Below the pieces are notes generated by a model. The model did no database searches and was not told the origin of the DNA. It was given only the letters and a program-made list of their open reading frames with translations. From Candidatus Benthicola marisminoris (lineage in GTDB: Bacteria > Gemmatimonadota > Gemmatimonadetes > Palauibacterales > Palauibacteraceae), in assembly GCA_023554335.1 (NCBI GenBank), contig JAMJQR010000135.1, positions 1 to 35,914 of the forward strand: a stretch of DNA of 35,914 nucleotides, in the 5' to 3' direction. The first letter of the stretch is position 1. Each line of letters starts with the position of its first letter. Of the stretch, positions 16,575 to 32,823 are shown one piece after another. The position numbers and the translations under genes were made by a program.

Positions 16575-18993
16575 CGAAACGTTCCTCCAGATTGACTGTG
16601 ATCAGGCGCAGTCCCTCCTCCACCTCCTCGTCCCTCAGCGTACGGTCGGCGGCACGGAACACGAGGCGCCAGGCCAGGCTCTGCAGCCCTTCTCCGAGCT
16701 CGTCTCCCTCGTACACATCGAAGAGCGAAAGCGACTCGAGCGTCGCCGGCGCCGCGGACCGGATGGTCGCCTCTACGTCTGCAGCGGATACCGAACGATC
16801 CAACACGAACGCCAGGTCCCGCGATACCGCCGGGTATGTCGGCAGCTGCGCGTAGGCCTCTTCCGAGCCGACCGTCACCGCGTGCAGCCTGAACTCGGCA
16901 GCATAGACGGGAGCCGCCCATACCGGCAAATCCATGGCCTCGTCACCAACTCTTCCCGCGACACCGACCAGGCCTCCCTCGTCAAAGATGCAGAACGACT
17001 CTCCTCCGAGCCACTGCGAACAGCCGAAGGGAAGCCCGGCGTCGGAAGCATCCGGTTCTCCCGGGCGTATATCTCCCAGCCCCAGCGTAGACGCCAGGGT
17101 CTCGAGCCAACCCTTCAGATCCCAGAGATCGATGTCCTCGCGGTTTCCGGACCAGTGCGGAGGTTCCCGCAGGCCGGTGATCGCGAGGCCCACCCGGGTC
17201 TCCTCAACCACCGGAAGGTCGTCACTTCCCTTCCGGTCCGCGTCCGTCCGCTGGAACACGTTCCCAATCTCATAGAGTCGGACATCCCGACGACCGCGCG
17301 ACCAGTTGTGCTCCACCCGGCCGAGCAGGACCGGCACCAGGTCCGTACGGAGCAGCGACTCGGCCTCCGAAAGCGGTTTCAGCAGGCGAGCCGGGTTCCC
17401 GGCTGTACGATCCTCAGACGCGAAGCTCGCGCTGCGAGCCTCCAGGGCGCCCATGGACGAGAGCGCAGATCGCACGCTCGAGGCCCGATGCCAGACCGGG
17501 CTGTCCGGCACGGCGCTGGGTCGGAAGGCACGAGGCTCGTGCGGAAAGGACTCGTATCCATACCGCCGCGCCACTTCCTCCAGGAGGTCCACTTCGGCAC
17601 GAACGTCGGGGCGCCAGCCCGGAGGAACGACCTGCAAATCGTCGTCCCCCTCCCCCACCTCGAAACCCAGCGGGACCAGAAGCTCCCGGATCTGTAGCGG
17701 AGACAGCTCGATTCCGAGGACGCGCTGAATGCGCGCCGGCCGCAGCCGGATCGCCGGCGCCTCCACGGGGGCCCGGCCCACCCGGAGCGCCTCTCCATCG
17801 GCGGACCCGCCGGCGGTGACCAGAATCAGCTCCACGCACCGACGCAGCGCAGCCTCCATGCCGGATTCATCGATCCCGCGCTCGAAACGATACGATGCGT
17901 CCGTCGCGAGCCCCGTGGCGCGCGCCGTGTTCCGGGTGTGGCGCGGATCGAACGAGGCGCACTCGATCAGCAAGCTCGAAGTCGACCCAGAGACCTCCGA
18001 GTCCGCTCCCCCCATCACGCCGGCCAGAGCGACCGGCCACTCCGCATCCGCGATCACCGTGACCTCGGATCCGAGACGGTGTTCGGTACCGTCCAGGGTG
18101 GTGTGATCTTCGCCGCGGGCGGCGCGCACACGGATCTCGGCGCCGCCTACCTTCTCCAGGTCGAACGCGTGCAACGGCTGGTTCAACTCGAGCAGGACGT
18201 AGTTCGTGGAGTCCACCACGTTGTTGATCGGTCGGGATCCCGCGGCCCGCAGACGTGCCTGGAGCCATTCCGGGGACGGGCCCACTTGCACGTTCCGGAC
18301 GATGGCCGCCAGGTAGCGGAAGCACCGCTCGGGATCCTCGATCGCTACCTTCACGCCGCCGGCCGACGCGTCCGTCGCCCCCGAGACCCAGGTGGGCTCC
18401 CATACGGGCCCGCCGAAGGACGGGAGAACCACGTCCTCCTCGCCCCCGGGCGCGAGCTCTCGCGCCACGCCCCTGTGGCATGCGAGATCGATTCGATTGG
18501 GCGTTAGATCCAGCTCGAGCCGCGCGTCCGGCAGGCCCATGACCCGTGCGAACGGTTCTCCCGGCGTGTGGTCGTCGCCGAGCCGCATGATCCCGGCGGC
18601 ATCTCGTCCGAGCCCGAGCTCCTTCTCCGAACACAGCATCCCGTTGCTGACCTGCCCCCTGATCTTGCGGCGCTCGATCTTGAAGCCGCCCGGGAGCGTT
18701 CCGCCAGCGGGAATGAACGGATAGCACGCGCCAGAGACCACGTTCGGCGCGCCGCACACGACATCCAGGGGCTCGCCGGAACCTGCATTCACGCGGCACA
18801 GGGACAGCCGGTCTGCATTCGGGTGCTTTCCGACTTCGAGAACGCGGGCGATCACGACGTCGTCCAGCTCGTCACCGAAGCTCTCCACGCGGTCCACTGG
18901 AACGGCCCGTGAACTCAGGAGGGACGCAAGGTGCTCCGGCGAGCCATCGATCGAGGGTGCCAGGGCCCTGAGCCAGCTAACGCTTACATCCAT
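16552..18993 (-). CDS. pheT: Phenylalanyl-tRNA synthetase beta subunit
   Basis: [37 protein letters not shown]..., tRNA-binding domain, B3/B4, B5 and C-terminal anticodon-binding domain; ATGA overlap with pheS stop. Confidence 0.97.
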   Translation of the reverse strand: MDVSVSWLRALAPSIDGSPEHLASLLSSRAVPVDRVESFGDELDDVVIARVLEVGKHPNADRLSLCRVNAGSGEPLDVVCGAPNVVSGACYPFIPAGGTLPGGFKIERRKIRGQVSNGMLCSEKELGLGRDAAGIMRLGDDHTPGEPFARVMGLPDARLELDLTPNRIDLACHRGVARELAPGGEEDVVLPSFGGPVWEPTWVSGATDASAGGVKVAIEDPERCFRYLAAIVRNVQVGPSPEWLQARLRAAGSRPINNVVDSTNYVLLELNQPLHAFDLEKVGGAEIRVRAARGEDHTTLDGTEHRLGSEVTVIADAEWPVALAGVMGGADSEVSGSTSSLLIECASFDPRHTRNTARATGLATDASYRFERGIDESGMEAALRRCVELILVTAGGSADGEALRVGRAPVEAPAIRLRPARIQRVLGIELSPLQIRELLVPLGFEVGEGDDDLQVVPPGWRPDVRAEVDLLEEVARRYGYESFPHEPRAFRPSAVPDSPVWHRASSVRSALSSMGALEARSASFASEDRTAGNPARLLKPLSEAESLLRTDLVPVLLGRVEHNWSRGRRDVRLYEIGNVFQRTDADRKGSDDLPVVEETRVGLAITGLREPPHWSGNREDIDLWDLKGWLETLASTLGLGDIRPGEPDASDAGLPFGCSQWLGGESFCIFDEGGLVGVAGRVGDEAMDLPVWAAPVYAAEFRLHAVTVGSEEAYAQLPTYPAVSRDLAFVLDRSVSAADVEATIRSAAPATLESLSLFDVYEGDELGEGLQSLAWRLVFRAADRTLRDEEVEEGLRLITVNLEERFDARIRSS

Positions 18994-26894: not shown

Positions 26895-27961
26895 CGCGTG
26901 GGGTCATCGCCGGGTCCCCCCACGACGACCTCGGGCGGACGGGACCCGAGCAGGACCGCGATCCACCTCGTGTCATCGGAAGCCTCGAGGATGATCTTCA
27001 TGATCATCGTCAGAGGCACGGAGAGGAGCATCCCGACCGGACCGAGAACCCAGCCCCAGAAGATCAGGGAAAGGAACACGACCAGCGTGGACAGCCCCAT
27101 TCCCTCACCCATCACCCGCGGCTCGATGAAGTTGCCGATGACCGTATTGATCACGAGGTAGCCGATGGCGGTCACCGTTCCGTCTCCCGGGCCGAACTGG
27201 AGGAAGGCCAGCATGACGGCCGGAATGGCCGCGATGAAGGACCCGATGCTGGGAATGTAGTTGAGCAGGAAGGCCAGGAGACCCCAGAGCAGTGCGTAGT
27301 CTACCCCTATGATGCTGAGCCACACCGCGACGAGGACACCCGTGGCGAAGCTGATCAGCGTCTTGAGAGCCAGGTAGCGCCGGACGTCGTCGTTTATCTG
27401 CGCGAAGGGGATCAGGTTCTGACTCGTGTCCGGGAAGGCGGAACGAACCTTGGCCGAAAAGCCAGAGATCTCGAGCAGGATGAACACGGTGATGATCAGG
27501 ATGATCGCGATCTTGCCGAGTACGTCCCCGACGCCAGTGAAGATGCGGCCGACGATTCTGAGTATCTCGCCCGGGTCGAACGACTCGGCGAGCAGTTGGC
27601 CCGAGACTTCGAAGCCGTGCGACGACAACCACACCACCAGCTCCGCGACCTCCCGCTCCAGCCTGACCTGGTAGCCGGGGAGTGAACGCGTGAAATCGAT
27701 TAGAGAGGTCCCGATCAGAGTCCCGGTCATGGTCCCGATCCCCAGCAACGCGAGGACAATGATCAGAACGGAAAGCCAGGTTGGCAGCCCTTTCCGCTGC
27801 ATCCAGCTGAGCGGAGTCGCGCAGATGATGGCGAGCATGACCGCCAGCAGGAACGGAACCAGGATCGGTTCCGCGGTCCGCACACCCGCGACCAGCACCA
27901 CGAACGCGGCCCCGATCAGCAGAAATCTGCCGGCCCTTGTAAGTCCTGGCCCGTTGCTCAT
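26879..27961 (-). CDS. AI-2E family transporter (PerM/YdiK-like)
   Basis: Multi-TM 360 aa; NYIPSIGSFIAAIPAVMLAFLQFG, VIGNFIEPRVMGEGMGLSTLVVFLSLIFWGWVLGPVGMLLSVPLTMIMKIILE. Confidence 0.92.
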   Translation of the reverse strand: MSNGPGLTRAGRFLLIGAAFVVLVAGVRTAEPILVPFLLAVMLAIICATPLSWMQRKGLPTWLSVLIIVLALLGIGTMTGTLIGTSLIDFTRSLPGYQVRLEREVAELVVWLSSHGFEVSGQLLAESFDPGEILRIVGRIFTGVGDVLGKIAIILIITVFILLEISGFSAKVRSAFPDTSQNLIPFAQINDDVRRYLALKTLISFATGVLVAVWLSIIGVDYALLWGLLAFLLNYIPSIGSFIAAIPAVMLAFLQFGPGDGTVTAIGYLVINTVIGNFIEPRVMGEGMGLSTLVVFLSLIFWGWVLGPVGMLLSVPLTMIMKIILEASDDTRWIAVLLGSRPPEVVVGGPGDDPTRWVGS

Positions 27962-28073
27962 CCGACTCCTCAGAGCGGTGTTGAAGCCTTTTGCGCCCGG
28001 TGGCGGACACGTAAGGTAACGTGCCTCACGGTGCTGCCGTCAACGGGGATTCCACAGCCAGGAGAGCCCGCGC

Positions 28074-29516
28074 GTGACACTCCTCCAGACCGCCTGGCCG
28101 TACATAGCGGCCACGCTCGCGTTCCTCCTGTCGCTGCTCGTGTCAGCGCACATCCTGCTGCACAAGCGCGAGGTTCGCGCGGCGGTTGGCTGGATCGGAC
28201 TGGCCTGGCTGGCCCCGGTCGTCGGCTCCTTGCTGTACCTCGTATTCGGAATCAATCGGATCAAGCGGCGCGGATCCGAGATCCACGCCAGCATGGACCG
28301 GGTCCCCGTCCCCCGTCGCCTGCCTGCAACTCTGACGCCGCCGCTTCCCGCTCCACCCCTCGATGAGTCTCTTCGGGAGCTGGCTCGATCCGTCGATCGC
28401 GTCACCCGAAACGAGCTGCTGGCGGGAAACCGCATCGAGCCACTGCGAAACGGGGATGCTGCATACCCCGAGATGCTTCGCGCGATCCGGGAGGCGCGCA
28501 CGTCCGTTGCGCTCGCCACGTACATCTTCGACATGGACCGGGCGGGTCGGGAGTTCGCCGACGCCCTTGCCGAAGCGGTCAGTCGAGGAGTTCACGTGCG
28601 CGTTCTCATCGACGGCGTCGGTGCCGCCTACAGCAGGCCAAGGGCTCCCGGAGTGCTCCGCGAGCTGGGAATCCAGGTGGGCCAGTTCGGGGGGGGGATG
28701 GTCCCGTGGCGGATGCCATACGTGAACCTGCGAAACCACCGAAAGATCCTGGTGGTCGATGGAAGCGTCGGGTTCACAGGTGGTATGAATATCCGAGAGA
28801 GCTCCTACCTGGCCCTTGGCACGCGCTACCCGACGCGGGACCTGCACTTCAAGCTCGAGGGGCCCGTCGTTGCGCAGCTGGTAGACGCATTCGCGCAGGA
28901 TTGGACCCACACCACCGGCGAACAGCTGCCCGGCGCACTCTGGTGTCCGCCCCTCAAACCGGTCGGTCCATCGGCTGCGCGCGGAATCAGCGACGGCCCG
29001 GACGACGATTTCGAGAAGCTGTCCTGGACCATCCTCGCGGGCCTGAGATCGGCTCATCGGCACGTGCGAATCGTCACCCCGTATTTCCTTCCCGACCAGG
29101 CTCTGCTCACCGCCCTCAATGTGGTCGCAATGGCCGGTGTGCGCCTCGACATCGTACTCCCGGAGAGGTCGAACCTGAGAATCGTGGGCTGGGCCATGCG
29201 CGCACAGCTGGCACAGGTCATGGAGTATGGCGCTCGCGTGTGGCTGAGTCCGTCCCCGTTCGACCATTCGAAGTTGATGCTCGTCGATGACGGCTGGGCG
29301 CTGTTCGGCTCGGGCAATTGGGACCCTAGGAGCCTGCGCCTGAACTTCGAGTTCAACGTCGAGTGCTACGACGAGCAGCTGGTGACGAAGCTGGACGAGC
29401 TCGTGACCGAGAAGATCAACGACGCCCGGCCGCTCTCGCGGGACGAGCTGGACCGCCGTTCCCTCCCGGTGAAGCTTCGCGACGGTGCCGCGTGGCTCTT
29501 CTCTCCCTACCTGTGA
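28074..29516 (+). CDS. cls: Cardiolipin synthase (phospholipase D superfamily)
   Basis: Two HKD motifs: NHRKILVVDGSVGFTGGMN and DHSKLMLVDDGWALFGSGNWDPRSLRLNFEFN; N-terminal TM helices; GTG start. Confidence 0.94.
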   Translation: MTLLQTAWPYIAATLAFLLSLLVSAHILLHKREVRAAVGWIGLAWLAPVVGSLLYLVFGINRIKRRGSEIHASMDRVPVPRRLPATLTPPLPAPPLDESLRELARSVDRVTRNELLAGNRIEPLRNGDAAYPEMLRAIREARTSVALATYIFDMDRAGREFADALAEAVSRGVHVRVLIDGVGAAYSRPRAPGVLRELGIQVGQFGGGMVPWRMPYVNLRNHRKILVVDGSVGFTGGMNIRESSYLALGTRYPTRDLHFKLEGPVVAQLVDAFAQDWTHTTGEQLPGALWCPPLKPVGPSAARGISDGPDDDFEKLSWTILAGLRSAHRHVRIVTPYFLPDQALLTALNVVAMAGVRLDIVLPERSNLRIVGWAMRAQLAQVMEYGARVWLSPSPFDHSKLMLVDDGWALFGSGNWDPRSLRLNFEFNVECYDEQLVTKLDELVTEKINDARPLSRDELDRRSLPVKLRDGAAWLFSPYL

Positions 29517-29531
29517 ACGGGGAGGAATGAC

Positions 29532-30659
29532 ATGCGCGTAATGGGGCGCGAGACGCGGTCGATCAGGCTGTCTTCCGAAGGAGGCCGTGCCCCGGTTCCC
29601 GAGGTGCTGGACCAGACCCGGCTTCCGCACGAGGTGAGATTCGTGCGTCTGGAATCCGCGGGAGATGCCGAGCGGGCGATTCGCGAGATGTGGGTGCGTG
29701 GGGCGCCCCTGATCGGAGCTACGGCCGCATACGGCCTGGCACTGGCGGCGCGGGCGGATCCCTCCGACGCGGAGCTCGCTGCGGCGGCCGAACGCCTGGT
29801 CGGCACTCGGCCCACGGCCGTGAACCTGGGCTGGGCGGTTCAGCACGTGCTCGACAGGCTCGCGCCCCTGGGGGAGCCGGAACGGGAGAAGGCGGCGTTC
29901 GAGATCGCAGCCGCGCTGGCCGATGCCGACGTGGCTCTCTGCCGCGCCATCGGCGAGCACGGTGAGTCCTTGCTGCGCCGGCTTGACCACGTGTCCGGCA
30001 GGAATCGCCCGTTGCAGATCCTCACCCACTGCAACGCGGGGTGGCTGGCCACCGTCGACTGGGGAACCGCTCTGGCGCCTGTCTACAGGGCGCACCGGTC
30101 GGGCCTTCCGGTGCACGTGTGGGTCAGCGAGACCCGGCCGCGCAACCAGGGCGCGGCCCTGACGGCGTGGGAGCTGGCCGGTGAGTCCGTGCCCCATACC
30201 GTGGTCCCCGACAACGCCTCGGGCCACCTGCTTCGCACGGGCCGCGTGGACCTGGTCCTTACCGGCACGGATCGCACGACCGCGGCCGGCGATGTTTGCA
30301 ACAAGATGGGCACCTACCTGAAGGCGGTCGCCGCAAACGACTGTGGAGTTCCCTTCTACGCCGCCGTGCCGGGACCTTCGATCGATTGGTCCCTGGGCCC
30401 CGGGGAGGCGGACTTGATCCCCATCGAGGAAAGAGCCGACGAGGAAGTGTCGGAGGTCCGGGGGTACGCGGTCGGGTTGGGCCAGAGCTCCGTGCGGATC
30501 ACGCCCGCTGGAACACCAGTGGCCAACTTCGGGTTCGACGTGACTCCCGCACGTCTGGTATCAGGCCTCGTGACGGAGCGGGGCGTGTGCGAGGCGAGCC
30601 CGGATGGACTCGCCGGTCTGTATCCCGAGCGGGCATTCCCGGAAGGCAGCAAGTCATGA
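29532..30659 (+). CDS. mtnA: S-methyl-5-thioribose-1-phosphate isomerase
   Basis: MWVRGAPLIGATAAYGLALAA, ILTHCNAGWLATVDWGTAL, DLVLTGTDRTTAAGDVCNKMGTYLKA, AGTPVANFGFDVTPARLVSGLVTERG. Confidence 0.95.
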   Translation: MRVMGRETRSIRLSSEGGRAPVPEVLDQTRLPHEVRFVRLESAGDAERAIREMWVRGAPLIGATAAYGLALAARADPSDAELAAAAERLVGTRPTAVNLGWAVQHVLDRLAPLGEPEREKAAFEIAAALADADVALCRAIGEHGESLLRRLDHVSGRNRPLQILTHCNAGWLATVDWGTALAPVYRAHRSGLPVHVWVSETRPRNQGAALTAWELAGESVPHTVVPDNASGHLLRTGRVDLVLTGTDRTTAAGDVCNKMGTYLKAVAANDCGVPFYAAVPGPSIDWSLGPGEADLIPIEERADEEVSEVRGYAVGLGQSSVRITPAGTPVANFGFDVTPARLVSGLVTERGVCEASPDGLAGLYPERAFPEGSKS

Positions 30660-31453
30660 AAATGTACCAGGTCGATTCGTTCACCGACTAGCCGTTCCGC
30701 GGCAACCCTGCGGCTGTGTGCATGCTGGAAGAGTCGGCCGACCCGGGTTGGATGCAGAAGGTCGCGCGGGAGATGAACCTGTCCGAGACCGCGTTCCTGC
30801 ACCCGGCCGGCGACGCATATGGCCTCCGCTGGTTCACTCCCGCGGTGGAGGTCGAGCTGTGCGGGCACGCGACGCTGGCGGCCGCCCACGTTCTGTGGGA
30901 AGAAGGCCACCTGGACACGCGCGACGCAGCGCTGTTCGATACGGTGAGCGGTCGGCTGGCGGCGACGCGGCGTGGCGACAGGATCGAAATGGACTTCCCC
31001 GCCGAGCGCGCGGAGCCGTGTGAGCCTCCGCCGGGGCTCCTGGAGGCTCTGGGCGGAGCCTCCCCGGTCGCCGTGGCCCGCAACCGTTTCGACATCCTGA
31101 TCGAGGTGGCCGATGAGGACACCGTGAGATCCCTATCCCCCGATTACCAGCGAATCGGCACCCTGCCGGTTCGCGGCGTAATGGTGACCGCATCGGCGGA
31201 CGCGCTGGTATCGAACGGAATCGACTTCGTGTCCCGGTTCTTCGCGCCAGCGGTGGGCGTGAACGAGGACCCGGTCACCGGCTCGGCCCACTGCTGCCTC
31301 GGTCCCTGGTGGTCGGATCGTCTCGGCGTGGCGGACCTGGTGGGGCGACAGCTCTCCGAGCGCGGCGGGATCGTGGGAGTGGGAGTACGGGGCGACCGCG
31401 TTCTCCTGGCCGGCGCTGCCGTCACGGTGCTGCGGGGCGAGCTCCTGGGATGA
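30656..31453 (+). pseudogene. PhzF family (phenazine biosynthesis-like isomerase) gene with in-frame TAG at codon 12
   Basis: ATG at 30656 overlaps the mtnA TGA (ATGA): [79 protein letters not shown]. TAG at 30689-30691. Remaining frame intact to 31453 (track ORF starts at 30716). Confidence 0.85.
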
Positions 31454-31466
31454 CGCGGGGGAAACG

Positions 31467-31865
31467 ATGACCGGTCGGAACTACGAAGCCGGATCCGGGC
31501 AGGCCGGGATTCGATTCATCGATACGACCGAAGAGCTCGACCAGGTCTTCGACCTGCCGGCGGCGCTGCTTTTCAAACACTCGACCCGCTGCGGTACCAG
31601 TCGCAGGGCCCTGGCCGAGGTCGAGCGTTACTCCCGTGAAGACGGCGCCCTTCGCGTGTTCGGCATCGACGTGATTCGGCACCGCGGCCTCTCGCGGCAA
31701 GCAGCCGAGCGCCTCGGGATCCGGCACGAGTCGCCCCAGGCCATCCTGATCCGGAGCGGGGCCGCTGCCTGGGACGCCTCACATCACCGCGTCACCGCCG
31801 AAAGGATGCGCACGACAGCGGAGGAAGTGCTCAGCGACGAGCAGCGGAGGCAAACCGACGAATGA
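31467..31865 (+). CDS. ytxJ: Bacilliredoxin-like YtxJ family protein
   Basis: 132 aa; LPAALLFKHSTRCGTSRRALAEVERY...VFGIDVIRHRGLSRQAAERLGIRHESPQAILIRSGAAAWDASHHRVTAE. Confidence 0.85.
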   Translation: MTGRNYEAGSGQAGIRFIDTTEELDQVFDLPAALLFKHSTRCGTSRRALAEVERYSREDGALRVFGIDVIRHRGLSRQAAERLGIRHESPQAILIRSGAAAWDASHHRVTAERMRTTAEEVLSDEQRRQTDE

Positions 31866-32823
31866 TGTCACCGGCCGGCTCGACGGAGGTCACCCCGGCT
31901 ACGCTCTTCCCGGCCTGCCAGAACTCTCGCCGTCCCGACTCATCCCGGTTGGCACGCGCGAGGCGAATGCCGGAACGGACGGCGTAGAAGGACCGCATCC
32001 AGTGTTTGGTCCGCCGACCGCGCAGCAACTGCCGCGCAACGGAGCCTGCCTTCGTCCCCATGGCCTCCACATATGGCGTCCGAAGGACCGCCAGCGGCAC
32101 CCCCGTCACCTTCTCGCTCAGAACCACATCGCTCGCATCGGCCTCGACGATCGCCCTCTTGTACGCGTCGCTGGCGTTGCACTCGGTCGTGGCAATGAAC
32201 CGCGTTCCCATCTGCACACCAGCATAGCCCAGACCTAGAGCCCCGACGAAGTCGTCCTCGGTGCCTATTCCTCCGGCGCAGACCACGGGCAAGCCCAGGT
32301 CCCCCACCTCTCCCAGCAGGTCCTCCGCCGATCTCGGGCCCGCGTGCCCCCCGGCACGGTCGTTGACGGCGATGAGACCATCCACGCCTGCGTCGACCGC
32401 CTTCAGCGCCCACTTGCGTTCCGTCACATCGTGATAGACCGAGCCACCTGCAGCGTGCGCGCGCTCGACCACCCACGCCGGGTTGCCGAGAGAGGTCACG
32501 AAGAAGCGCACACCCTCCTCCAGGGCCACGTCGACCCATTCCGACATGCGTTTTCCGTATCGGCGGGAGGACTTCTCGATCAGGGCGTTGAAACCGATGG
32601 GACGGTCGGTGAGGCGCCGGATGTAGCGCAGGCCCTCTCTGAAATCATGTCCGTGGACGTAGGTGAGAGAGACCGGCTGGACGATTCCGACTCCCCCGGC
32701 CTCCGACACGGCCGCGACGAGCTCCGGATTGCCGCACGGGTACATGGCGCCGCCGATCAGGGGCACCGCGATGCCGGCATCCCGGGTGAGATCGGTGGCG
32801 AGAGAAGGCACGCTCTCCGTCAC
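31831..32823 (-). CDS. Nitronate monooxygenase-like / FMN-dependent enzyme
   Basis: AVPLIGGAMYPCGNPELVAAVSEAGGVGIVQP, DRAGGHAGPRS, PVVCAGGIGTEDDFVGALGLGYAGVQMGTRFIATTEC; GTG start overlapping the upstream stop (GTGA). The track 507-aa ORF has a spurious N-terminal extension. Confidence 0.9.
   Translation of the reverse strand: MTESVPSLATDLTRDAGIAVPLIGGAMYPCGNPELVAAVSEAGGVGIVQPVSLTYVHGHDFREGLRYIRRLTDRPIGFNALIEKSSRRYGKRMSEWVDVALEEGVRFFVTSLGNPAWVVERAHAAGGSVYHDVTERKWALKAVDAGVDGLIAVNDRAGGHAGPRSAEDLLGEVGDLGLPVVCAGGIGTEDDFVGALGLGYAGVQMGTRFIATTECNASDAYKRAIVEADASDVVLSEKVTGVPLAVLRTPYVEAMGTKAGSVARQLLRGRRTKHWMRSFYAVRSGIRLARANRDESGRREFWQAGKSVAGVTSVEPAGDIIRRFASAARR

Follow-up and report, generated by a model that had tools for sequence, protein, structure and literature searches.

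In PhzF, four residues, E45, H74, D208 and S213, are treated as the active centre (PMC5524880). For a full protein, a family member needs an uninterrupted frame, whereas the gene described here has a TAG at codon 12 and is thus an interrupted member. Besides the PhzF family, the closest described systems are recent nonsense-mutation pseudogenes, which carry one private in-frame stop in a gene that purifying selection had maintained until very recently. Restart of translation has been reported in bacteria over more than 40 bases, at a start codon preceded by a Shine-Dalgarno (SD)-like sequence (PMC5972666). The gene lies in a 35,914-nucleotide stretch (hereafter the window), a single contig from a Gemmatimonadota metagenome draft; this assembly totals 2.57 Mb over 280 contigs and is 88% complete. 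A search across this whole draft genome found a single phzF copy, the one carrying the in-frame TAG.

Downstream of the stop, the frame matches PF02567 (PhzC-PhzF) with an E-value of 1.2e-57, covering positions 8-281 of the 281-position profile at 196.1 bits against a cut-off of 27, and the NCBIfam model TIGR00654 at 113.1 bits against a cut-off of 76.2. The residues ahead of the stop align to homologues too; therefore, what precedes and what follows the TAG belong to one gene and are no chance match, as the original prediction had held from the resemblance of both sides to PhzF. The read-through form, modelled by AlphaFold2 with Glu as residue 12, has a mean pLDDT of 93.9 and strands at residues 2-8 and 17-23. 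Its best matches in the PDB are PhzF-family structures, followed by DapF, with a diaminopimelate-epimerase-like two-domain fold. By sequence, the nearest solved structures are 1s7j and 4dun, and 1s7j, from Enterococcus faecalis, compares with the predicted read-through form at a TM-score of 0.89-0.91 and 41% identity. The 265-residue short form stands closer to 1s7j and 4dun (Clostridium difficile) than to the genuine phenazine enzyme PhzF (28% identity), so a role in phenazine synthesis does not follow. The active-centre Glu, His, Asp and Ser are present as E44, H71, D205 and S210, assigned by their positions in the motifs ETAF, CGHAT and EDPVTGSAH. By profile, predicted fold and active-centre residues, the locus is an interrupted gene for a putative PhzF-family isomerase.

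The features of the locus are collected in Table 1. The ATG had been described as overlapping the mtnA stop, and the overlap is four bases; from this ATG the sequence reads ATG AAA ATG TAC CAG GTC GAT TCG TTC ACC GAC TAG CCG TTC CGC GGC AAC CCT. Past the TAG, the frame, 265 residues in all, is open through to a TGA at 31451-31453, so that the earlier account of a codon-12 stop in an otherwise intact gene is exact at the sequence level.

Table 1. Coordinates within the window of the interrupted phzF gene, its parts and its neighbours
Feature	Position	Strand	Basis
phzF-family gene (PhzC-PhzF isomerase/epimerase fold), one interruption	30656..31453	+	PF02567 and TIGR00654 downstream of the stop; nearest structure 1s7j
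In-frame TAG at codon 12; congeners GAG, GAG, CGA	30689..30691	+	Sequence; stop at this codon in 0 of 105 aligned homologues
11-codon leader ahead of the stop; four-base overlap between its start and the mtnA stop	30656..30688	+	Sequence; anti-SD duplex energy
First candidate restart codons after the stop (GTG 30716, ATG 30722), without a Shine-Dalgarno site	30716..30724	+	Duplex energies
Remainder of the phzF frame, all near-invariant residues kept, including E44, H71, D205 and S210	30692..31453	+	Homologue alignment
mtnA (S-methyl-5-thioribose-1-phosphate isomerase), upstream neighbour, intact	29532..30659	+	TIGR00512 above cut-off; synteny
Monothiol bacilliredoxin BrxC/YtxJ-like gene, downstream neighbour, intact	31467..31865	+	PF11009, E = 3.3e-26; TIGR04019

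For comparison, 106 homologues were aligned, 105 of them readable at codon 12. Three congeners that have a full-length phzF correspond to public Gemmatimonadota metagenome assemblies. Codon 12 is a stop in none of the 105; the residues there are R in 39, E in 26, K in 12, Q in 10, T in 9 and V in 6, with A, H and G once each. That this position is variable speaks against a special amino acid at the amber codon. Elsewhere the gene shows little or no decay. Columns with conservation of 95% or more across the other homologues were counted as near-invariant, and all 77 such residues are kept here, as they are in the three congeners. The dN values to three outgroups are 0.298, 0.299 and 0.318, against 0.301-0.329 for the congeners with intact copies. 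Relative to those congeners, dN/dS is 0.11-0.13 for phzF versus 0.16-0.18 for the neighbouring mtnA over the same three pairs, figures that are rough because synonymous sites are near saturation in these Nei-Gojobori counts; the dN comparison among sister copies stands despite that saturation and is independent of dN/dS. On these sequence comparisons, phzF has been under purifying selection until very recently, and the stop would be very young, not real, or harmless.

The original prediction had left open a list of options, namely a recent nonsense mutation, restart downstream, readthrough or suppression, and a sequencing or assembly error, and the tests narrow it to the first and the last. 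Our preferred explanation, which we hold to be probably correct, is that a nonsense mutation, private and very recent, has struck a PhzF-family gene that is not essential. One substitution in codon 12 would have produced it, the simplest being GAG to TAG. Among the three single changes named earlier (from CAG, AAG or GAG), GAG is the likeliest precursor, since the congeners have GAG, GAG and CGA at this codon. RF1 would then end translation after 11 residues, the ribosome would release, and no functional PhzF would be made; we infer both the reality of the TAG base and the lack of any useful product. The resemblance to recent nonsense-mutation pseudogenes includes a stop private to one lineage, and no difference from them was seen, the sole uncertainty being whether the TAG base is real.

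Loss of phzF seems bearable, as a match at E ≤ 1e-20 is absent from 44 of 97 good-quality relatives; the gene thus looks dispensable, albeit by indirect evidence, from a strict cut-off and in part from incomplete drafts. Sporadic interruption of phzF does occur, since the phzF of a distant relative (G050, contig C187) has an in-frame TAG at another place, no more than about 80 bases from a contig end, where it replaces the glutamate of most homologues. This copy and the one in the present genome (G000) make two interrupted by one TAG among about 74 in these relatives. The same search with mtnA flagged stops in G081, G006 and G066, none of which was retained: those in G081 and G006 lie outside the well-aligned body, and the one in G066 belongs to a second, degraded copy. 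Clear single interruptions thus number none for mtnA versus two for phzF, too few to mean anything. The degraded mtnA-like copy of G066 (C11:7000-8200), with its in-frame TGA, sits beside an intact one.

The next explanation in order is that sequencing or consensus calling put one wrong base into the draft metagenome assembly, with the organism's own gene intact. In the assembly, such a base and a real nonsense mutation would be indistinguishable. We regard such an error as possible, albeit doubtful. It draws on the draft state of the genome, with the contig number and completeness given above, on a phzF that shows no decay, and on a TAG that is one substitution away from the congeners' GAG. 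The same intactness weighs against the nonsense mutation, in that phzF has no second inactivating change, be it a frameshift, a deletion or a second stop. Against an error, however, the TAG is not at a contig end, being about 5 kb inside one of 36 kb, and about 320 kb of the same assembly showed no further in-frame interruption, so that such errors do not abound in it. The latter result comes from a same-frame junction scan, which requires at least 25 coding codons before a stop and is blind to stops at codon 12, including that of phzF; within this scope, no second interrupted gene was seen. Of the 71 stops that the scan gave between coding-like stretches, 47 shadow other frames and the remaining 24 read as the boundaries of separate adjoining genes, e.g., rny-folD and nadK-recN. 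On the minus strand of L172, same-frame stops at 16871 and 17306 divide small ORFs that look alike, both stops being followed by MADIAFLL; these are probably tandem ExbD/TolR-like genes.

A functional restart would require post-termination ribosomes to begin again at GTG 30716 or ATG 30722 and to make an active protein of 243-245 residues. The two codons are 25 and 31 bases past the stop and so inside the reported range (PMC5972666). Nevertheless, neither is preceded by an SD-like sequence, with anti-SD duplexes of -1.7 and -1.8 kcal/mol that are weaker than the background median of -3.1, whereas the start at 30656 follows GGAAGG by 9 bases and has a duplex of -5.7 kcal/mol against the same median. 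Further, a restart at residue 21 or 23 would, in the predicted structure, lose the strand 2-8 and cut into the strand 17-23, and it would delete seven near-invariant residues (D7, F9, F14, G16, N17, P18 and A19). All homologues aligned from residue 1-6 have the full N-terminus. Because the orthologues have this N-terminus and a sense codon at position 12, the native start is 30656 instead of 30716 or 30722. The restart option, raised earlier, has thus fared poorly: by sequence and model alike, a functional short product is unlikely, and we would give it only a slim chance.

Slimmer again are the prospects of amber suppression or programmed readthrough yielding the full-length protein. The gene is intact and conserved on both sides of the TAG, and a suppressor tRNA could sit unseen in the roughly 12% of the genome that is missing. 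The search for a CUA-anticodon tRNA suggested earlier has now been run, however, and none was found among the 38 tRNAs of the 88%-complete genome, nor was PylS found in it. Position 12 varies and no homologue has a stop there, which speaks against both a special residue and a readthrough signal kept by conservation, and TAG terminates 45 of 257 coding ORFs. It is equally improbable that the amber is tolerated and the gene works via low-level readthrough, or via a suppressor tRNA in the missing 12%, with TAG otherwise a stop. If the full gene were translated nonetheless, it would offer an example from nature of an amber codon tolerated through readthrough.

As for reassignment of TAG to sense, one result at first points towards it: the prfA (RF1) profile has no match above cut-off in the draft genome. 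Of two other matches, the one on contig C46 is a distinct factor of full length, with a score like that of the congeners' sub-cut-off second factor, and is taken as RF2, and the one on contig C92 is a short GGQ protein. By contrast, prfA is above cut-off in 36 of 41 genomes searched, including 4 of 5 congeners; G001, too, has no such match. In the genome G003 the gene order, with names from translations, is hypE, a lipoprotein gene, prfA, prmC and a CDP-alcohol phosphatidyltransferase gene. In the present genome hypE and the lipoprotein gene occupy the end of C154, and contig C23 starts inside prmC, ahead of the phosphatidyltransferase gene. The absence of prfA is therefore no evidence of loss, since its position falls in the gap between C154 and C23, and with the flanking genes at contig ends on both sides, RF1 loss was rejected as support for reassignment. 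An assembly break that runs exactly across prfA could be misread by automatic annotation as RF1 loss. The stop codons themselves speak plainly. In about 320 kb of the genome, window included, the 257 coding ORFs end in TGA (203), TAG (45) and TAA (9), and within the window recN, rny and infC end in TAG at normal C-termini, which bears out the earlier judgement, made from these three genes, that whole-genome reassignment was unlikely. With TAG a common terminal stop, prfA found in most congeners and its site here an assembly gap, reassignment is refuted as far as the draft assembly allows, and we consider its remaining probability negligible.

As a recent nonsense allele of an ordinary kind, or else an error of assembly, the case matters little in itself. 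It shows, rather, that one stop within a frame of a draft metagenome is no ground for assuming recoding, even when RF1 is apparently lacking: here a contig break took the release-factor gene, and the stop is private.

Around phzF, the order with mtnA is the same in the three congeners, and a scan of 27900-32000 found no sigma-70 promoter. On the downstream side, the neighbouring gene is of the BrxC/YtxJ monothiol bacilliredoxin type, which suggests the use of bacillithiol in this Gemmatimonadota genome.
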